This document shows, piece after piece, positions 13,260 to 54,666 of a stretch of 64,000 bases of DNA (position 1 is its first letter; each line of letters opens with the position of its first letter). The notes beneath the pieces were generated by a model that worked only from the letters and a program-made list of their open reading frames with translations, was not told the origin of the DNA and ran no database searches. The DNA comes from Rhododendron vialii (lineage: Eukaryota; Streptophyta; Magnoliopsida; Ericales; Ericaceae), in NCBI RefSeq assembly GCF_030253575.1, contig NC_080560.1, positions 9,172,501 to 9,236,500 on the forward strand, in the 5' to 3' direction. The position numbers and the translations under genes are program-made.

Positions 13260-16200
13260 ATGGCTTGCATGGGGGCCAACATTTCTTCACCTTCTCGATG
13301 TAGGGCTATGTGGAGTGGTACTACTACTTCCCTCGGACTTACAACTAAAATGGGGTTTTGTGCATTGACTCGGAGATCGAAAACCCCTGCGCGTGATCGT
13401 TCACAGCACTGCATGTGCATGACAATGCCATCGGCGCCTCTTTCGACGGAGATGGTGATCAATGGAGTGAATAACTCTGTCTTCGCGACTGTTCTACATC
13501 CTCAGGTAATTAATGAGCTTAAGATTCTGTATTTTCTGGTCGTTGAATGAGAGTTGATAAATTTTTAGTCCTGTCTTCTTTTTTCTCTTTTCTCGCACCA
13601 AATATATGTCATATGCTTCTTTCTCATGTTTCTAGCCGGCCAATATTCCATGTATAATCGAGAGGCAAGCTAGGGCTAGGATTTATGGACGATGGGATGA
13701 AATATAAGAGAGCTTATCCTTACGTTATGATTAGCTTCCATTTCTCGATGATAAAGTAGCAAATTATTACTCCCTCCGTCAGTATTTGTTAGTTTATTTT
13801 GGGGTTTTCAACTTTTTTAGGGAACGTCGTGATTGTTTTGCACAATTTTTATTTTTTCTACCCTCCAATCAATTAATTCAATATTTGAATGCAAGGATAA
13901 CATAGTACAATTGATACTATTTACTTATTGACTTTCAAACATGGACAAATATTGAGAGACAGAAAAAAGTATGTTTATGGACTAACAAACACGGACAGAT
14001 AGAGTACTATAGTCTTAATTAATGGGGAGGCTCCCGTCCAGTGTAGGTTGCACCAATCCTGTTCAGTTTTGGCCAATCGTGGGCCTTTTTGTTCAATTTT
14101 TAGATCTCTTCGAAAATATTAGCCATGCCAAAAATCACGCGGATCGGATATTGTTTGACATCATTTTAAAATGCATTAAAGTTTTAGACAAATGTGTGAA
14201 GGGATTGCAATCCAGTGTTGCACATCTTTTTGTTTATAAGATTAACGTGATTTTTGTTGCAGCCAATGTTTGTGGCGAGTTCTAAAAAGCGAAAGATTCC
14301 AATCATTATTTTGGGGTCGAAGAGAGCCCACAATTGGTCGAAACTGGACGGGACTGGAGGCAATCTACAATGGACGGAGCCTCCCCTACTTAACGTGGTC
14401 TTTTGGAACAATTTACTAACGTGTGGCCAAATCCATAAAAATAATAGTAGTAATAATTACATCTCCAAGGCAAATTTTCAAACTCAGCGACTGAACTTGC
14501 AGTTGCCACCCACGTAACAAACAAATCTTGCATCTTATAAATAAAAATAAATAAAAAAACAAACAAACAAATCTTGCTTACACAGACTTATACTACTATA
14601 GAGTGCAAAGGTTTGTTTGGTGTAACCTTTTTGGCTTTTTATTTTTGGAAATTTCTATTAGTTAATGTGTTTGCACAAGTAATTAAGTTGTATATATCCA
14701 TGTAATATCGACTTTCAACATACTAAGTTATGAGATCGATCAATGGGTGTCGGGGTAGCCCAAGTGTTTAGGTGTTTTCCTTATCGGGAAAATTAAGGTC
14801 ACGGATTTTGATTCTCACCGCAGGGTCCTATTCTTTACCTCTTTTATTAGAGAGAGATAAGGTAGTATAGGTTTCTTGCTTGAAAAGAAAAAAAAAAAAA
14901 AAACTTCGTAAGTTGCAGTGGTAATATTGTTGTGCTAGGTCTTACCTCCAAAAGTTGATGATAACACCAAGATGCTAGAACTCCAAGAGAGAACTCAACT
15001 AGCACTCCGAACGGCGCCATCTGAAATGACAATCACCGACGCGTTGAAGTTGGTAGACACGCTTCAGCGACTCGGGATCGGGTACCATTTCCAAGAAGAC
15101 ATCAATGCCTTACTTGAACGATTTTCCGACGGCCCGAACCCACTCCACGATGAAGATCTCTTCACCGCCGCACTATGTTTCCGGCTACTCCGACACAATG
15201 GTTACCAGATGAGTCCTAGTACGTAGCACTACACTGCATTATTTTACGTTGTCTGCTTTTCTTCTTCTTCTTCTTGTCAAAAGCTGGAAATATCGTTGAT
15301 AGCTACGAGGAAAATTAGAAAACAGTACAGGCAAATGGAATCTGTTTTGGGATTTTTTTATTTTTTTTTTTCAAATCTACAACTAGTAGATAAACTATTT
15401 CAAACACATTTTTAAAACTTGTAAGTTAACTTGAACTTCGACTTGGTTCGCTTGTTTACAGCAAGTCTGTCCACACAGACAAATTACACATTGATTGTGC
15501 ACAGATTTTGTAGTCAAACTCACCGCGGATACCACATAAATGATCTGAGTCGTCGTTCATTAAATGTACAACATTTTTTCAAGGGTCCACGCTAAAAATC
15601 AATTCAATCTGATACCTATAAATGCTTGATCCAATTATCTAACTTTTCATTCTCCGAAAATCTAAATGAAAAGTTAGATGATTGGATCGAGCACCTATAA
15701 GTATTAGATTGAGCTGATTTTTAGTGATCGATGACTCTTAAAAAATTGTTTTACATTTAATCAATAGTTCAGATCGTTTGAGCGAGACCTGTGATGGGCC
15801 CACACCAAAATCTGTGCACAATTTATACACAAATGTCTATGTGGTTAGCAGCTGGCTTGTTTTTCTCCACTGTACATTTTTGCTGAGCCCAAAAAGACTA
15901 AGTGCATGGACACCATCAAAGTGTGGGGTAGAGAGTGGCAAAGCTAGAATTCCCAAAGGGCAAAATATAAATAATGAGGATGCATTATGTCATATTTTTA
16001 TCCGTTTGTCCCTTTGGGAATCCTGACTCTGCCACTAACTCACGAAATGCAAAGAGAACAAAAAAATCCTGTACAAAATTCCTTCACGCCATTCTTGTAT
16101 GATTTTGTGAATAAGTTTCCCTTAATTCGCATGTTTTCGCGTAACTAATTGGTTGTTACATGCCCATTATACACGTAGCACAGATATCTTTCGAAAATTC

Positions 16201-18788
16201 ATGGACAAAAGTGGGAAATTCAAGGATTCGTTGAGCACAGACATAGATGGAATGCTGAGCTTGTATGAAGCTTCATACTTGGGCACATATGGGGAAGATG
16301 TATTGAACCATGCCATGGAATTCACAGAGGCTAAGCTGAGGCAATCAATTCCATTGATGGCTCCTCAATTGGGAAGAAATTACTCTCATGCCTTGGAGCT
16401 TCCAAGGCACTTGAGAATGGAAAGGTTGGAAGCCAGAAGGTTCATTGGAGAATTTAGTAGGGAAAGTGACCAGAGCCCATATTTGGTGGAACTAGCAAAG
16501 TTAGATTACAACAAGGTTCAATCACTGCACCAAGCAGAGTTGACTGAGATTTCCAGGTTATTTTCTCTTTTTTGTGGGTATAAAGGCCCAATTTTGAGAA
16601 CAGATAGTGCATACTAATACAACTCCGGATTGTGGGTCCAATGTTGTGTCAGTAATGCGTGCACTGCTACCTTGTCTATACCGTTAGTGCCATTTATCAA
16701 ATGGTTATGGTTCACATGGCGCGACTTGGTGGTTTTATTCAGATTTCCATTTGTCTAAAATAGTTGTACACGCGCGTCACATATTCCTTATGAATCGTTT
16801 GACGACCTAATTATGCAATGGGTGAATGCTGTTTCAGGTGGTGGAAGCAGTTGGGTCTTGTGGAAAAGCTCACTTTTGGCCGTGACCGGCCACTGGAATG
16901 CTACTTGTGGACTGTGGGTCTCCTTCCGGAGCCCAAGTACTCAAACTGCCGAATTGATCTAGCCAAGACCATTGCCATTTTACTAGTTCTTGACGATATC
17001 TTTGACAGTTACGGCTCTTTAGATGAACTTGCCCTCTTCACAGATGCAATTCAGAGGTCTGTATCTGTACTCTACTTTCCGCGTAGATATCAGTTAAAAA
17101 ATTTCGTCTGTTTTCTGATGAGGGACTCTGAACTTGTTATCTCACTTACTTCTTTGCAAAACTTATTAACTTTCAGATGGGATCTTAGTGCAATGGAGCA
17201 GCTGCCCCAATACATGAAGATTTGTTACATGGCCTTGTACAACACTACCAATGAGGTTGGGTACAACATACTCAAACAACATGGATGGAGTGTCGTTCCG
17301 CACCTTAAAAGAACGGTAAATGTTTTGCTCAGTAAAAGTTAGCGCGACACAGAATGAATCACATAATTCACTGGAAGTGAATCACAACCTCATACTATCA
17401 ATTCGGAAAGGTTTCAAAGACCATTTTCTAGGACTCTAGCACTCCTGTATACGCAACATCCAGTACATAACCATGGCCCATGACAGAATTTTGAGCCGTC
17501 CATCTTGTGGAGCCAGCTAATTAAAAAGACTATCCATCCACAATCAAGCTGATCAGGCAAAGGTAGTTGCGTTATTCGAGCATAGGTGTGTTAATTGAGA
17601 AGAAACATAGATGCTTGGTGTATAACCTGTCGATTTTCAAGACAACTTCTTTAACAAGGCAGTTACTTATATCCGATCAATCTGTATTTAACATTAACGT
17701 CCCCCTCAAACTCCTCTATCACAAAGATTAGTTTGCGTTGTTCCATTGGTAGAATGTGCTCCAATACATGACAAATGCGGCAAATTCTACTAATACAATC
17801 GCGACACATCACATGGTACCCAAAACGTGGTACTCAGACAAGGTCACCAAAATATTAGCATTCCAAAAAACTTGAAGCCAATAATTTCAGCTCCAAAATA
17901 TGGATTTGCTATGTTTGCAAACTCCTTTCTTATTCCCTTTTTGCCAAAGACTTCTGTTATTTTGGAGGGAATCACAAGTTTGTTGATCTTGCAGTGGATA
18001 AATATGATTGAAGCCTTCCTCCTTGAAGCTGAGTGGTTCAACAACCGATACGTACCCAACCTAGAGGAGTATCTGGAAAATGGGGTAACAACAGCAGGGT
18101 CATACATGGCCCTGGTGCATATTTTCTTTCTCATTGGACAGGGGGTTAACAAGGAAACTATAGGGATGATGGATCCATACCCCAAGCTCTTCTCCTCCTC
18201 GGGCAGAATTCTTCGGCTTTGGGATGATTTGGGGACTGCAACGGTATGTACACACGGATCTGAGATCCTCTGTTTTAACATTTTTTCTGTCGTCATGTGG
18301 CATAATGTACTAGAAATAACGGATCACAAAACTTTTGAAACACAATCGTACGACTGAAGATATAGTGAGTTGAGGGAATGGTGAGTCCTAATGCAATTAG
18401 AATAAGGTACGGTGAGTCCCAAAGCTCACATAACCTGAACCGTGCATGAACCTTTTGTTTCCTCTTTGTCACAAATTTGTTTTTCCGATTGGGTTAGGAT
18501 GAGCAAGAAAGGGGAGACGTAGCATCGAGCATAGACTGCTTCAGGAGGGAGAAGAATCTTTCATCCGAAGGCGAAGCTAGAAAGCAAGTGAAGCAACTCA
18601 TCCGCAGCCTATGGAAAGAGCTCAATGGCGAGTTTACAGCTCCGAAGCCGTTGCCCCTACCCCTCATAAAAGCATCCCTCAACATGTCAAGGACTGCCCA
18701 AGTTGTTTATCAACATGGAGACGATAACAAGTTCTGCAGTGTTGATGATTGTGTAAACTCTTTGTTCTTCACGCCCATTGGGTTTTAG
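13260..18788 (+). CDS. terpene synthase, linalool/nerolidol synthase-like (TPS-g type)
   Basis: Seven exons: 13260-13505, 14939-15218, 16184-16556, 16838-17056, 17177-17315, 17995-18243 and 18498-18788. All have GT-AG borders and compatible phases, giving 598 residues. The N-terminus is Ser/Thr/Arg-rich with few acidic residues, like a plastid transit peptide. It lacks RRX8W, which points to the TPS-g clade of acyclic alcohol synthases. Catalytic motifs are intact: RDR (315-317), DDIFD (352-356, Mg-diphosphate binding) and the NSE/DTE-type motif WDDLGTA..DE (495-504). The seven-exon layout matches class III TPS genes. Expected reaction: ionisation of geranyl or farnesyl diphosphate to a terpene alcohol such as linalool or nerolidol; the product cannot be read from sequence. 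Exon 1 and the exon 2/3 junction are the least certain. An alternative donor at 15223 with acceptor 16178 would also keep frame but insert extra residues. The ATG at 13260 was chosen because the in-frame codon further up is TTG. Confidence 0.9.
13770..14004. mobile_element. Stowaway-like MITE in terpene synthase intron 1
   Basis: Left end CTCCCTCCGTCAGTATTTGT; right end reads (reverse complement) CTCTATCTGTCCGTGTTTGT. TA flanks both sides (13768-13769 and 14005-14006). CTCCCTCCGT ends with TA duplication are the hallmark of Stowaway (Tc1/mariner) MITEs. Length 235 bp, non-coding. Confidence 0.8.
14021..14393. mobile_element. MITE family Z, copy 1 (373 bp), in terpene synthase intron 1
   Basis: The ends are long inverted repeats. 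Left begins GGGGAGGCTCCCGTCCAGTG; right (reverse complement) begins GGGGAGGCTCCGTCCATTGT. Similarity continues for about 90 bp per arm (for example 'ccaattgtgggc' words). No convincing target duplication was found. The right arm closely resembles part of the tandem repeat unit at 52117-53340. Confidence 0.75.
14744..14902 (+). mobile_element. SINE-like retroposon just upstream of terpene synthase exon 2
   Basis: An A-box-like GTAGCCCAAGTGTTTAGG (about 14755) and a degenerate B box GATTTTGATTCTC (about 14804) are followed by 60 bp and an A-run (14888-14902). The A-tail ends only 36 bp from the exon 2 acceptor (14938), so the element supplies most of the sequence where branch point and pyrimidine tract would be expected. 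No clear target duplication. Confidence 0.6.
15458..15854. mobile_element. MITE family X, copy 1 (397 bp), in terpene synthase intron 2
   Basis: Foldback element: CCAATTATCTAACTTTTCAT in the left half answers ATGAAAAGTTAGATGATTGG in the right, and GTGCACAGATTTTG near the left end answers CAAAATCTGTGCAC near the right. Flanking GCTTGTTT occurs on both sides (15450-15457 and 15855-15862), an 8-bp target duplication suggesting a hAT-related MITE. Other copies are at 33646-34033 and 48096-48489. Confidence 0.8.
15938..16036. mobile_element. miniature element with inverted repeats (about 100 bp)
   Basis: Left AGTGGCAAAGCTAGAATTCC and right (reverse complement) AGTGGCAGAGTCAGGATTCC match closely, and both continue CAAAGGG. 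These ends resemble hAT ends. No convincing target duplication. It lies in terpene synthase intron 2, about 150 bp before exon 3. Confidence 0.55.
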
Positions 18789-19608: not shown

Positions 19609-22600
19609 TTACCTCCAGATCAAACAAGATATTTCCATTCCTTGGTAGACATCCATTCCTTGATAAACTTGGAGGCCGCACCCAGGAAAGGATCCCTGAA
19701 CAACTTGAAATCCTTGAGTTCGCTTAACAAGAACTATTGGAATAACTGAATTCTGGTCCAATCTAACAGGATGCAGTACGATCCTTTCTAAGACTACTTC
19801 GCTTTTGAGCACAAGTCTCAAAAAGTGTAATTCATCCATTGTGCCCCAATAGCAGTTTAGCTTAAGGTGCCCCAAACTTGGTAAGTTGAAATTGATCCTC
19901 TCAAACTCTTCAGATATTCTCGCTCCAAAAATCTAAGATTTGAGACAACAATTTTTTCAGATTTGAGACACAATTTTTGCGGACTAATGTTACCACAAAT
20001 AACAATAACTGAGTTGGCACAATTAACGTACCATACTTACCTCTTCATTGATCCTAAGTTCACGGTCTAGGATCATTGTTCCAAGTTTGGGTGAAAGTTC
20101 TAGTAATACGGCAATGCCAACCATATCAGCTTTTGTATATTCCATATTTATTCTCAAATAGTTGAGGTTGTGAAATACAAAACGTTTAGGGAGACAGTAT
20201 TTTGATACCACAGCCTGTTGATATGACAAACATGTAAAAAGTTAAACCTGCGAGGCTGGCAGTATAACCAAATATGTGAAGCCATCTTTCACCTGATTCA
20301 TGTAACTCAAAGACAATTAGTAAGCTTGCAAATGGAGTTGAGATCATCAGCCGTCAACAAATACATCAATCAATTAGAGAATGAATGATTCTTAATTAAT
20401 CTCGTTGCTAAACAACCCTTGTTCTTTCTCTTTCCTCTATTTGCAAAGCATGTTAAATTATTTTTACTACAACATAATTCTTCTTTGCTCTGCTTGCAAA
20501 GTTGAATTGTCAAAACCAGTGAAAGTCACACTGCAATGCTAGCACCGAACCTAGCCAATGCAAACAAGATGTTTAACAGTCTTTCTAATGACCTACACAA
20601 CTCCAATCCTAAATTACACTGTCCTACTTAAAATCTCCACAATCAAGGAAGCCAGCCGAGAAATCGAGCAATCTTAGATAGCATTTCTATTTATAATCTG
20701 CTTAGCTAGCACTGAACGAAAAAAAATTATTCTCTACGAAGACTCATTTTCTCAATCCAGCCGATAGCCCTCTTTATTACAGCAAAGATTGTACATGACA
20801 AGTTAAAAAAACCACTCAGTAATGTGAAACACTTGAACACGACATATGTCATGCATAAGTAAGCACAATCGGTTACAGGTTCAAAGTCTAACCAATCTTT
20901 TCAAGGCTATTGTCTTATGAAACCAATTTTATTTGGGCTTCAATGTATAATACTCCAGCAAATGGGCTAATCAAACAAACAGAAGCACTCATTCCTTGAA
21001 CTTCACAATCAAGGAAAAAACAATTAAACCCAAAAAGAATAGGATGACTTTGCGCCCCCTGTTCTTCACATACTTCACTTCCTTGTTTTCATTAGGCGAA
21101 GCCATAAAATGCCTTTCTCAAAATCTTAGGTGAGAAATTATTCCCCTAGTTTGGCCTCCCCTAAAGAAGAAATCATGGTTCCAATATTGGCCTAGCCGCT
21201 TTAAAGAAGGGTGGTCCAACAGCAAGTTATGCTCAACCTTCATTATATAAACCATTTGCCCTGGAAGTTATTTGTCCTCGATACACAATACAGATTCTGA
21301 AACAATCACCCCATCTAAGTAAATTTTCTACTCTGTTCAGACCTCAATCCCTCATCTCTTTTACTCTCATTTGACATATATCATACATGCGACCCTTTGC
21401 TACACATTGAACAATGTTCTAAATGGAGCTTGGCGGTAGTCGGGCGGAGACCCACCTCCAAGTGCCAAGCCGCCTAGGCAGCGCCAGCAATTCGGCTGAT
21501 TTTATTTTATTTTTTTTTAACAAACCATTATCCAATCAAACTATATTCTATGTATTCATAATGCAAGTTCAAACTTCAAAGTACAAACCCAAATGAAATT
21601 AAATAGTAGCAACTAGCAAATAAGTTGAATAAGACAATAAGCAGAAATAACCATAATGCAATGTTTAATGTTCAAACTTCAAAGTACAAACCCAAATGAA
21701 ATAAAATAGTAGCAACTAGCAAATAAGTTGAATAAGACAATAAGTAGAAATAAACGAGATCGGAGATCCCTAATGCCAAGTTCAAAGTTCATCTCCTTCC
21801 TCCAACTCTTCTCCACCATACCCCTCCAAAGGCCTCCAAAGATGCTGAAGACGCCAACGACGCCGCCAAGCCTGCCAAGACCGCCAAGCCCGCCTAGGTG
21901 GCCGCCAAACCTCCCTGGGTGCCAAATCAAACGCCAAGAGGTATTGGCGTGGCAGCAGGGCACCTCCAAGCGCCGGCGGCCGCCATTTAGAACACCGACA
22001 TTGAATAGCTGACCCTTAACTCTTCATTTTGTGTTCTAGAGGCCACTGAATCCTAGAATCATTACCAGGTTAGCCATCAAGCAAAAGAGTCTCCAATTAT
22101 TAGCCAGCAATTCTTACTCAATCCTATTCTCAGGTTAAATATCTTTTAATCTCCATCTGTATTATACTTTTATACTTATCACCAATTAAAGCCATGGTTT
22201 CAGTTTATTCATGCCTTTCTACCAAAATCTTAGCTCATGCAGTCAAACCCTTACCATTTCTGAAGTCCTCAAAACAGGGGCAGGACACTGTTTGGCCAAG
22301 GGGCCCCCGACACCCCCCAACTTATGTGTAAACCAACAGGGTGTATGTTATGCATACGTTCTGTACAATGGCTTCTATATTCAAAGTCTAGCCAGCTTTT
22401 CCTAAGCCTCTAGTCTAATAAAATTAATCATACTTGGGCTTTAATGTACACCAATCCAACAAATGGGCTTACCCACCAAATAGGCACACGTGAATACCTT
22501 AAACTTCACACTCAAGAGAAAAACAATCAAACCGAAAAAGAATAGGACGATTAGCACCCCCTGTTCTTCACACACACTACTCTTTCTGTTTCCAGTTGGC

Positions 22601-49291: not shown

Positions 49292-51364
49292 ATGAGGAAG
49301 AGGTGCGAGCTGTGCAAGTCGACGGCCACGATTCTCTGCGATTCAGATCAGGCAGGCTTGTGCTGGGACTGCGACGCCAAGGTTCACTCGGCCAACTTCC
49401 TCGTCGCGAAGCACTCCAGGACTCTGCTGTGCCACGTCTGCCAGTCGCCGACACCCTGGAACGCCTCCGGTTATGAACTCTGCAAGACGGTGTCGGTTTG
49501 CCGGGCTTGCCTCGACGGTTGTAAGCCGGTGGTAGAGAGCGAAGCCGACGCAGTCGAAATCGATATAGAAGACGGAGAATGCGACGAGTTGTACGATCAG
49601 GACGACGAAGACGAAGTGGATCGAGATGATGATGACGACGATGAGGTGGTGGAGGAGGAGGAGGAGGAGGGAGAGAATCAGGTGGTGCCGAGGTCGGCGA
49701 GTTTGGCGAGCAGTGAAGAAGAGTCGTCCAGTGTCATGAGGTCATGTAACGGCGATGATGGAGCGGTTTCGTTGAAGCTATTGCGTGAAAAGTCCGTCAC
49801 CGGGGATCTTCACTCTAACGTATGAGTTCTGAGTCCATTTCTTTCGGAGGTTTTTGAATTTTTTCTGATTTTACAACTTTGTTAATCCCAGTAGAGGATG
49901 TGAATATTTTTTTCGGAAGTTCAGCTTTACTTCTTTTGCCTAAATTGATTTCTCTTACAAACAATAAGTATTTTTTTTGTGATCGTTTGTTTACTTTTTT
50001 TTGTAAGGAGTGGTTTCAGAATTTGAGTTTTAGTGGTTACAAAAACGTAAAGAAATTTACTAGGCATGGCTTCACGGCTTGTGTTATTTTGTTGAGTTAT
50101 ACTAACTAATTATTCACAAATTTAAATGAATTTTATTCATTTTCCTTTTGTACGGTTGATCCAGTGCAATTCTGCGCAGACTATACTAAAGAAAAATCAA
50201 ATTTTATATAAAAACTGTATAAAAAAAAAATTAGCACAATTTCTGAACCTAGGAACCCTTCACTTACAGCCCCTTTTGGCAATGGAGGTGAGAAAAGAAA
50301 AAAAAGGGGAGTGATCTTCCTTATTAATGAGAAAAGAGAAGAAAGGGTTGTGATTTAACCATCCATCCAAACAATCATGAGAAATCAAACTCTCTTCACA
50401 TCTTCAGCACTTCAACTCTATCTCTAGCGACTTCAACTCCATCTCCAGCGACCTGAAACTCTCTATTTCTCTCTTCTCCGGCGACCAAACATCATCTCCG
50501 GCTACTGGAACTTCATCTCCGGTGACTGGTCCGAAGTCAAAGTGTTCAAAACTCAATTTTGATCACAGAAGTAGCTTCTCCTTGATGAAACGAAGACCAA
50601 CGGCACAAGTAAGACGACGATCCGACGAGAGGGTGGACCACACGTGCTGCACGCGAGTGAGATCTACTCTCACCCACGCACCTCACTCTCTCTCTTCCTC
50701 ACGGAATCTCGCCGCCACTTTTGGTGAGAAACGGAACCGAGGGGTATGAGAGAGTTCCGTCTCTCTCCTCTCACCCTCTCTCATCTTCTGGGCCTTCCAA
50801 ACGAGGGAGAGAATCCCTTCTCCCTCCGTCCCCTTTCTTTTCTCGAAAACCTCCGTTCCAAACGAGCTGTTAATGGTGGAGCAGCCCATGTTTTTCATCA
50901 TAATTTTTTGGAATCAATTATAATTCATTCTTTGAAGCGATAATAGAAATGGATAAATAAAAAAATAAAGTTCAAATAAAGCGACACTGAGTTGAAGGAG
51001 ATCCTTGAGAACTTGGACTTTGTTTATTCGAATTCAGCATTGAGTCGTATCCGTTTCAAACCGCGAATTGCATTTTTTTCATCTGACTTTTCACCTAACG
51101 CCTTAAGTTGCGTGACAATCGATCATTCATATCTTCTTCTTTTTCCAGAATCCTAGTTGTTAAGATATTAATGTCACTGGCCGATAAGCGGTGAGTATTT
51201 ATTGAATTTCAATTTTTTTTTTTAATTTGCTAAGAGTATGTGGTGATTTTGTGTCGCAGGATGATCTCCGCCCCCGTTCATCTTCTCGCCGGGAAAACAG
51301 TTCGCTGCCGCCAGCTTCTCTCACCAAACGTCAGAAAACTGGCTTCACTTCCTGCGCCGACTGA
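49292..51364 (+). CDS. B-box zinc finger protein, BBX28/29-like
   Basis: Two exons, 49292-49819 and 51260-51364, joined in phase 0 (TCTAAC|GTATGA, GTCGCAG|GATGAT), giving 210 residues. The first exon alone would end two codons past the donor. An N-terminal B-box binds two zincs: Cys5, Cys8, Cys16, Asp19, Cys24, Cys27, His32 and His41 fit CX2CX7CX2DX4CX2CX4HX8H. A second, degenerate box follows (CHVCQSPTPWNASGYEL...C..C). Then come an acidic run (about 90-130, Asp/Glu-rich), a Ser-rich part and a C-terminus with KRQK. There is no CCT domain. This layout matches Arabidopsis BBX28/BBX29, nuclear regulators of light responses that act through protein-protein contacts. The 1.44-kb intron holds a CT-rich patch near 50,400-50,860. 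Confidence 0.88.
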
Positions 51365-52116
51365 TTCTGAACCTATCATCCTACATTAGCTTCGTTTTTC
51401 TAACAAACAACGCAATTTCTAGGATTCGTTATCTATGAATCGTCCTAGTTTTTGTATATTAGGTACTTTTAATACTATGGTTTTTTGGTTAATTGAAATC
51501 AATTTTTCAATGTTTTACTTCGAATTTGGACTCAATAATCAAGCACATATTGGTGCCATTTATGTTTGTTTTTCATTTTGGGAGCCTTCTCTCTCTATTC
51601 GTACGAATTTGGTGAAGTTGTTTCACATGGAATTCCCTTTTTTTTTTCCCCCTCCTCCTATAATCAAGATTCATCATGGAATTCAGTTGCCCTACTATTG
51701 TTCAATGTATATTTCTTGTTGGAGATGCTTTCGTTTAAGTGGCGGATTCAAAACTTCTGCACTACACAAGAGAGAACGTACATATGACTAATAATAAGCT
51801 TCAAAATATTTTCCTTCAGTTAAGATATTATTCGATATCTGACTTATCTGATTTTTTACGTGACTGTGACACGCAACGCATGCTGCAATGCGAACGAATC
51901 TGAATGTCGTATATGACCCGAAATGAGGACGAAACTGGCCGGTTGGAGTCCACCCCCAAACGGCTGGCAAGCCGTGTCCCTTTTTTTATTTTTTATTAAA
52001 GAAATGATAGTGATGAATTGATAATTTCTTACAAGTACGGACGAGGTACCATTGCAAGTTTTCGAAAGAATGAAAAAGAACATATTCGAGGCACAAGTGT
52101 AGAATCCAAAAATCTA
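51365..52116. other. 3' region of the B-box gene and spacer
   Basis: Untranslated and intergenic sequence; no gene or element recognised before the tandem array. The frames at 51435-51791 have no family signature. Confidence 0.4.
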
Positions 52117-53340
52117 GGGCCATGCACATCCGCAACTGTGTTGTTTCTTTCTTATGTAACGATTTTCTTGAGGAGATATCTAGGGGAGGATTAGTTGGGA
52201 GCGGTTCTCATTCAGTTTCTAAGCATCCAATTTGGTCCAGTTTTTGTCACTTGTGGATCGACAACAATGATTAAAATCGTTCACGTTTTAGAGTTAGCCA
52301 AGTATAGCGACCATGTTGAAAATTAAACGAATGGTTGAAACTGGAAGGGCCAGGCACATCCACCACTGTGCTGTTTCTTTCTTCTGTAACGATTTTCTTG
52401 AGGAGATATATGGGGGAGGATTAGTTGGGAGCGGCTCCCATTCAGTTTCTAAGCATCCAGTTTGGTCCAGTTTCTATCACTTGTGGATTATTTGTGGATC
52501 GACAATAATGATCAGAATCGTTCATTTTTTAGAATTGGCCGAGTATAGCGACCATGTGACCACGTCGATAATTAAATTAATGGTTGAAACTGGAATGGCC
52601 AGGCACATCCGCCACTGTGTTGTTTCTTTCTTCTGTAATGATTTTGTCGAGGAGATATCTGGGGGAGGATTAGTTGGGAGCGGCTCCCATTCAATTTCTA
52701 TGCATCTAGTTTGGTCCAGTTTCCGTCACTTGTGGATCATTTGTGGATCGACAACAATGATTGGAATCGTTCACTTTTTAGAGTTAGCCCAGTATAGCGA
52801 CCATGTGACCACGTCGAAAATTAAACTAATGGTTAAAACTGGAAGGGCCAGGCACATCGCCACTGTGTTGTTTCTTTCTTCTGTAACGATTTTCTTGAGG
52901 TGATATCTGGGGGAGGATTAGTTGGGAGCGTCTCCCATTCAGTTTCTTAGCATCCAGTTTGATCCAATTTCTGTCACTTGTGGATCATTTGTGGATTGAC
53001 AACAATGATCGGAATCGTTCACTTTTTAGAATTGGCTGAGTATAGCAACCATGTGATCGCGTCGAAAATTAAACTTACGGTTAAAACTGGAAGGGCCAGG
53101 CACATCCACTACTGTGTTGTTTCTTTCTTCTGTAACGATTTTCTTGAGGTGATATCTGGGGGAGGATTAGTTGGGAGCGGCTCCCATTCAGTTTCTATGC
53201 ATCCAGTTTGGTCCAATTTTCGTCACATGTGGATCATTTGTGGATCGACAACAATGATCGGAATCATTCACTTTTTCGAGTTAACCGAGTATAGCGACCA
53301 TGTGATCACGTCGAAAATTAAACTAATTGTCGAAACTAGA
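52117..53340. repeat. tandem array, five units of about 249 bp
   Basis: Units start at 52117, 52347, 52596, 52845 and 53093 with GGGCCAGGCACATCC (one variant tGGCC, one CATGC). Lengths are 230, 249, 249, 248 and 248. Each unit contains CTTGTGGATCATTTGTGGAT and ATCGGAATCGTTCACTTTTTA. The 249-bp period is a multiple of three, so long open frames (for example 52313-52903) repeat an 83-residue block, but different units have stops. The second half of the unit is homologous to the right arm of the MITE at 14021-14393 (GGCTCC, GTCCAGTTT, TTGTGG, GGAATC, CTTTTTAGA in the same order and spacing). Confidence 0.88.
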
Positions 53341-53344
53341 AGGA

Positions 53345-53425
53345 CCAAGAAATGATCCACAAATTGCCGAAACTGACCCCAAACTGGATGCTAAGAAACT
53401 GGATGAGAGTCGCCCCCAGATTAGT
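53345..53425. repeat. inverted half-unit bordering the tandem array
   Basis: Read on the minus strand, this stretch gives CAGTTTCTTAGCATCCAGTTTG and then TTTGTGGATC, in the same order as inside the array unit. The array therefore ends in an inverted copy of part of its own unit, as expected if the founder was a foldback element. Confidence 0.7.
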
Positions 53426-53520
53426 TCCCATGCACAAATATTCGGAATTAAACTAAGCCACAACTTGAGGCCGGCAATCATGTCAAGTGGGACGATGCTT
53501 TACACCAAGGACTTTCCACA

Positions 53521-54385
53521 CCATTGAATTTAAGAATCATCAAAGACCTCACATTAGAATTCTTTAGTACAGAATTTATGTATTTAAAAGCACTAAAAGC
53601 ATGTGGTTGAGGGAGTTTCCCTGCATCCCACTTGATTATACTACTATACAATTCGCAAAGTTGTTTTTTATTAGTCGTTAGTTGGCATAAGTTTTTCTTT
53701 TTATAATCAAGTGTTTGAGCCAGCTTATGAGTATTTCGACTAATCTTGAAGAACTAATCTTACCATCCACCAATGGGAGACCCGTTGAAAGAAATAAGAG
53801 CAATTATATGGATTGACCCCAAAAGAGTCGATGAGTACAAGAAAGAATGAGATTCTTTCTAGTCATGCAAATGGACTGGATCGATTCAGTTCAGTCTTTT
53901 TGGGCCTTTTTCGGTCTCACTTTAACAATCCGAATCGTTTATATATTAGACCTCGTCGAGAACTATAACCATGCAAGAAAATCAAGTTAATGGGATGTCG
54001 TTTGTTATGATTATGAAGTATGTTTGTATTGGGATATATAAATGTTGTCAAACCGAATCTAAATCCATTCAACCTATTTAGCTCAAAGTAAATGTGTTTC
54101 ATAATCATGTCAAACGATAATTGATCAATTTGATGTTCACTGAGGTCATAGTTCTCAATAAGATCTAAAATATTAACGATTCGGATCATCATACTGGGGC
54201 CAAAAAAGTCCCCATGAGGGCTGAACTGGCTCGGTCTAGTCCATTTGCATGACTGGAGACTAACCCATCCCATTCAAGAATCATCAAGACCTCATATAGA
54301 ATCCTTTAGTACAGAATTTGCAAATTTTAAACCACTAGAGCATGTGGATGAGGGAGTTTCTCTGTATTCCACTTCATTATTCAGT
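53521..54385. repeat. direct repeat pair flanking MITE Z copy 2
   Basis: About 120 bp at 53,521-53,645 ('aagaatcatcaaagacctca', 'ctttagtacagaattt', 'gagggagtttc') recur at 54,272-54,385 with some divergence. The pair brackets about 630 bp that includes a family Z MITE. Confidence 0.65.
53860..54258. mobile_element. MITE family Z, copy 2 (about 400 bp)
   Basis: Foldback: left CATGCAAATGGACTGGATCG, right (reverse complement) CATGCAAATGGACTAGACCG, with AATCCGAATCGTTTATATATT answered by ATCCGAATCGTTAATATTTT. It shares 'ccgaatcgtt..atttttaga' with the array unit and with 14021-14393. Boundaries are approximate. Confidence 0.7.
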
Positions 54386-54666
54386 TCACCACCTTATTTT
54401 TAATTAGTCGTTATGTTTAAGCATAGTTGTTGGCATATTATAAAATAAAATAAAATGAAGTGTAAGGGAAGAGGTAACCAAAAAGTGCGTTGCAAGATAA
54501 ACATGACATCACTTTATGGTGGGATCCATACCATTTCAATTAATAGAAAGAAAGGTAATGTTCACCCTTTTTTAAAGATGGTGAACAAAATTGCATTCGG
54601 TAACTTGCCAATGATGGATTATGCAAGTAAAGGAGGAATAATACACACTAAAGCAATAAACACTAA

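Follow-up and report, generated by a model that had tools for sequence, protein, structure and literature searches.

In a 64,000-nucleotide stretch of Rhododendron vialii DNA (the window; contig 4 of a 13-contig, 532.6-Mb genome) we found a tandem array that very probably began as a single insertion of a foldback MITE, the left junction of which was afterwards multiplied in tandem to five copies. The insertion would have preceded the amplification, because the left copy of the target-site duplication (TSD) is present in every unit of the array and the right copy occurs once, after the inverted terminus. A sequence-only reading of the window had proposed this direction of change, from hairpin transposon to tandem repeat, and the distribution of the two TSD copies bears it out. 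Since the TSD is repeated in each unit, the order of events can be read without an outgroup.

TRF places the array at 52116-53347, with 5.0 copies of a 249-bp unit, in agreement with the five units of about 249 bp noticed earlier. We delimited the units at the recurrent word AGGGCCA (altered in unit 3), which gives five direct units on the plus strand, spanning 52116-53340: unit 1 at 52116-52345 (230 bp, made up of host flank, left TSD and MITE left arm, aligning to the others with gaps of 11 and 8 bp), unit 2 at 52346-52595 (250 bp), unit 3 at 52596-52843 (248 bp), unit 4 at 52844-53091 (248 bp) and unit 5 at 53092-53340 (249 bp), whose MITE part continues into the right terminus. An inverted partial copy closes the array. 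The number of units is that given by the genome assembly. Shifted copies of the array are 82-88% identical in self-BLAST, and the units overall are about 82-91% alike; pairwise K2P distances are 0.026-0.107 over the first 81 columns (flank) and 0.096-0.178 over the remaining columns (MITE arm). Judged by these distances, the array is not recent. C>T and G>A account for 26 of the 42 unambiguous changes in the MITE arm (an ambiguous site was left out), against 4 of 13 in the flank (Fisher P 0.06), and 42 of 168 sites are variable in the arm against 12 of 81 in the flank (P 0.07). This is no more than suggestive of methylation-type decay of the MITE arm, and we left it out of the argument. The array is open in one frame over 52313-52903 (196 aa) and 52978-53355 (125 aa), helped by the unit length of 249 (3 x 83); neither ORF has a Pfam match, and a coding array was rejected, the open frames being put down to chance. 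Elsewhere in the window TRF reports a 103-bp tandem repeat in about two copies (21567-21788).

Each unit consists of about 81 bp of host flank, ending in the left TSD, and a MITE arm, because a query from the flank matches the five units only. In unit 5, taken as an example, the host-flank part lies at 53092-53172 (plus strand, TSD included). A genome search with 53088-53160 (four bases from unit 4, followed by 69 from the start of the flank), with E up to 1, returned five matches, one per unit; the alignment to unit 1 opens at query base 5, where the flank begins. This search gave no match to the flank outside the array, though a failure to match is no proof of rarity. The unit had earlier been described as the end of a MITE; this holds for the arm, which does come from a foldback MITE, but not for the host flank, which makes up about a third of the 249 bp. 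As for the right flank (53428-53860), its first 100 bases gave no other match; beyond them there is a local copy at 54272-54413 and, in the second half, a dispersed repeat. The local copy forms a direct duplication with 53528-53680 (78%) that brackets a foldback element at 53858-54257, and, as it begins near the right end of that element, the locus has been through another local duplication.

Immediately ahead of the MITE terminus, each of the five units carries the 9-bp word GGATTAGTT (plus strand; 52188-52196, 52418-52426, 52667-52675, 52915-52923 and 53164-53172 in units 1 to 5, respectively). Its right counterpart, AGATTAGTT (53418-53426, plus strand), adjoins the right terminus, which ends at 53417, in direct orientation. 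The left and right words agree at eight of nine bases and differ at one; the chance of a match of at least 8/9 at a fixed place is 0.00035-0.00048, and both MITE ends and their flanking 9-mers are in register. Besides its places in the five units and the one after the inverted right end, the 8-mer GATTAGTT has a single plus-strand occurrence in the window, at 17726. The position of the terminus is set independently, because a family copy with a perfect 9-bp TSD of its own (CTTGATAGT; locus L020) aligns at the same base: its first bases match up without a gap with the first bases of the array, as judged by eye on the printed ends. From the TSDs we infer the state of the locus before insertion.

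The place of the TSD also bears on the idea that the array is one foldback transposon with repeats inside its TIRs, similar to Tetris or Galileo, which acquired them before insertion and moved whole. Foldback elements with repeats in the TIR are known (PMC4079207, PMC3169594; both in excerpt), and the topology, repeats together with one inverted end, is similar. Here, however, the repeats are on one side only and do not lie inside terminal repeats, since every unit takes in the TSD and flank beyond the terminus; moreover, the genome search turned up the flank part in no other copy. We therefore consider this origin highly improbable, and favour amplification of the junction after insertion.

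The array has a single right end, the inverted terminal repeat at 53350-53417 (minus strand), which belongs to the remaining two-ended MITE insertion at 53173-53417 (plus strand), a shortened foldback of 245 bp. The interval 53174-53418 folds as a long hairpin (z = -7.5 against shuffles). That an inverted part closes the array had been noticed before, and BLAST locates it at 53350-53418, 78-81% identical to the units; the MITE has two inverted ends, the left arm and 53350-53417, which are alike to the same degree. Near 53326-53350 the right arm looks rearranged: two right-arm-like stretches succeed each other there (for the first, compare L020), and the units include the beginning of that rearranged stretch. 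As they carry it, the MITE was probably already shortened before the amplification, although the rearrangement makes the order of internal deletion and amplification uncertain.

The same inverted copy might be read differently, with the unit as an independent tandem repeat, the inverted copy as an inverted duplication of it, and the MITEs as elements that took their sequence from the array. The resemblance of the inverted copy to the units fits this, as does the genome search, which found the full unit at this locus only. The inverted copy, however, ends at the family terminus and is followed by GATTAGTT in direct, not inverted, orientation, which argues strongly against such an origin: a direct right TSD is what transposition yields, whereas an inverted duplication of a unit would leave the reverse complement there. 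In addition, diverged copies with two arms are numerous elsewhere in the genome, and the search found the flank part nowhere outside the array. An independent repeat is thus very unlikely, if slightly less so than a transposon that moved with its repeats, and a MITE insertion preceding the array is the reading we retain.

Single foldback copies of the wider family are common elsewhere in the genome. A search of the genome with the array gave 60 matches from the 40 scored of 129 candidates. Outside the array these matches are partial; identity is 71-88% in most of them and reaches 97% over 34 bp. Those to the MITE arm are spread over 12 of the 13 contigs, with several arranged as inverted pairs at a distance of a few hundred bases. 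We examined 30 loci (28 fetched and two elements of the window), and in 21 an inverted-repeat element spans the family match by the rule of our script; the nine that failed the rule include the element at 53858-54257, although it is a foldback by other analyses. The repeat unit is homologous to a dispersed transposable element, making the array a TE-derived tandem repeat, and the MITE within it belongs to a foldback MITE family of this genome, whose members are short, consist almost wholly of inverted repeat and are dispersed in many copies. One subfamily, that of L013, is more closely knit: among the 40 candidates scored out of 738 there are 12 further copies, 95-96% identical along almost their whole length. 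Exact 7-bp duplications flank 7 of 21 family copies against 8 of 420 mispaired controls, exact 9-bp duplications 3 of 21 against 1 of 420, and 9-bp duplications with one mismatch 6 of 21 against 15 of 420. Against this, 18 of the 21 copies have no exact 9-bp duplication; copies with none of these duplications are too decayed or too short to tell. Beside the family copy at 449-864 of L011 lies a 389-bp palindrome (22-410) that is 99.7% perfect, apparently a very young foldback element.

Assignment of the MITE to the Mutator type would follow from the 9-bp length of the TSD, which is matched at 8/9 in the array and is exact in L012, L013 and L020. We also looked at 20 MULE transposase loci, mostly selected for their long open reading frames out of 150 scored matches (1102 candidates). 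At no locus is this TIR present on both sides, and a stray MITE-like match is present at 4 of the 20.

Two head-to-tail pairs of foldback MITEs were seen in the genome: at 296-661 and 710-1088 of L068, one of the 21 loci with a spanning inverted-repeat element, and on contig C9 at 26186430-26186770 and 26186878-26187234. The former are 72% identical, which suggests that they are perhaps independent neighbouring insertions. Adjacent same-strand pairs of this sort lend some plausibility to the proposal that serial MITE insertions into the same target site built the array, a double-insertion model being described in PMC12628747 (in excerpt). Serial insertion, however, would repeat whole elements with the TSD alone between them, whereas in the array the flank is repeated along with the left end and units 1-4 have no right terminus; of the explanations considered it is the least probable. 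Multiplication of one junction accounts for the repeated flank.

Two further foldback elements in the window, for which no strand is assigned, had been thought to be parent copies, one at 14021-14393 and the other at 53858-54257 (arms 69.8% alike). The likeness of the array to the former is beyond chance, as had been claimed: local scores of the five units against its right arm are 95-122, compared with means of 45-48 (sd 6-7) and maxima of 65-75 for 200 dinucleotide shuffles per unit, and BLAST aligns 88 bp at 72% identity (E=1e-6). Only the right arm counts here, because scores against the left arm (60-69) are about the shuffle maximum (68-77). The order of words shared with the right arm is as first described, but their spacing is not the same, since the alignments require gaps. 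Motifs in common with the element at 53858-54257 are present but weak, with scores of 73-96 against shuffle maxima of 73-84 and a BLAST core of 26-29 bp only. On folding, the element at 14.0 kb forms a long hairpin (z -10); no convincing TSD was seen for it, nor, by eye only, for the 53.9-kb element. As parents both were rejected: they are distant cousins in the family, and better-scoring matches lie on other contigs. A close sister of the array's MITE was not found among the 24 of 24 candidates scored, the best outside match being 87% over 62 bp. To judge from these comparisons, the parent of the array is the MITE insertion within the array itself.

We propose the following course of events. 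A foldback MITE of the Mutator type would have inserted into host DNA at (A/G)GATTAGTT. A tandem duplication of the segment from AGGGCCA, in the host flank about 80 bp to the left of the element, up to AGGACCA, inside the element, would then have followed; its probable cause is replication slippage or microhomology-mediated repair, with assistance from the hairpin, and unequal exchange among the copies of about 249 bp may have raised their number to five. What the array shows is a left end in each of the five units, preceded by its own copy of the flank and left TSD, and a single right end followed by the right TSD. The proposed microhomology consists of AGGGCCA at the upstream border of unit 1 (52116-52122, plus strand) and AGGACCA at the downstream border of unit 5 (53341-53347, plus strand). 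These words agree at 6/7 positions (chance about 0.002 per pair), which suggests a start by slippage or microhomology; the match is short, imperfect and was noticed after the fact. The right arms of L011, L012, L013, L015 and L016 contain AAGGGCC, which leaves room for the two border words having been identical originally, the correspondence of positions being unsure.

The word satellite, used for the array in the earlier reading, is too strong for five diverged copies at one locus (distances of 0.03-0.11 in the flank and 0.10-0.18 in the arm), and satellite DNA was rejected as a description. No second array of the same kind was found among the scored matches (40 of 129, 5 of 5, 24 of 24 and 40 of 738 candidates), but with so low a coverage others may exist. 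When TRF was run on the 28 family loci that were fetched, it reported one array with a period of at least 40, at 763-883 of L024 (58 bp x 2.1), outside the foldback of that locus (349-627). Being small, diverged and local, the array at 52116-53347 says little on satellites as such. A B-box zinc-finger reading frame (49292-49825) ends about 2.3 kb upstream, and the array is probably selectively neutral debris near this gene. Its use lies in the legible order, transposon first and array second, which is of value for the question of how tandem repeats originate. It is conceivable, though we hold it doubtful, that hairpin MITEs repeatedly provoke tandem duplication of their own host junction, with the TSD stamped into every unit. 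If this is true, TSD-stamped arrays would be a common first step to new tandem repeats, one in which the order of events stays legible in the sequence, and they would be recognisable by a simple genome-wide screen.

In the literature listings searched we met no array that carries the TSD in every unit, and make no claim of absence. The published sources compared below were available in excerpt. Known routes to tandem repeats include 5-10-bp flanking repeats, microhomology-mediated joining and unequal exchange (PMC6947457, PMC9659126, PMC12628747), and MITE-derived satellites are listed in PMC9659126 and PMC6947457. Minisatellites may be born via 5-10-bp flanking repeats (Haber and Louis, cited via PMC6947457), and here a 7-bp near-match flanks the duplicated segment; the unit of our array differs, being 249 bp long and lying across a transposon/host junction. 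The review PMC6947457 doubts the slippage and unequal-exchange route for larger units, but mentions a comparable proposal for the centromeric repeats of maize. The Tm1 Mutator/Foldback elements (PMC3169594) share the foldback shape and 9-bp TSDs with the MITE of the array, but are another lineage, with repeats of about 14 bp in the TIR and a putative transposase, for which we found no equivalent at the MULE loci examined. Tandem Helitron arrays (Xiong et al., cited via PMC12628747) have several 5' ends and one 3' end, much as there are several left ends and a single right end here; they are ascribed to rolling-circle replication, whereas host flank and TSD in each unit point to chromosomal duplication. 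A route from foldback element to emerging satellite is already in print for Tetris (PMC4079207): in Drosophila virilis, as here, a foldback supplied the building block of tandem arrays (Tetris/TIR-220, about 220 bp), but there the repeats lie inside the TIRs, whereas here the repeat spans the boundary between host flank and left arm and is known from a single locus. The array is thus a small, clear case of something already known, a transposable element that gave rise to tandem repeats.
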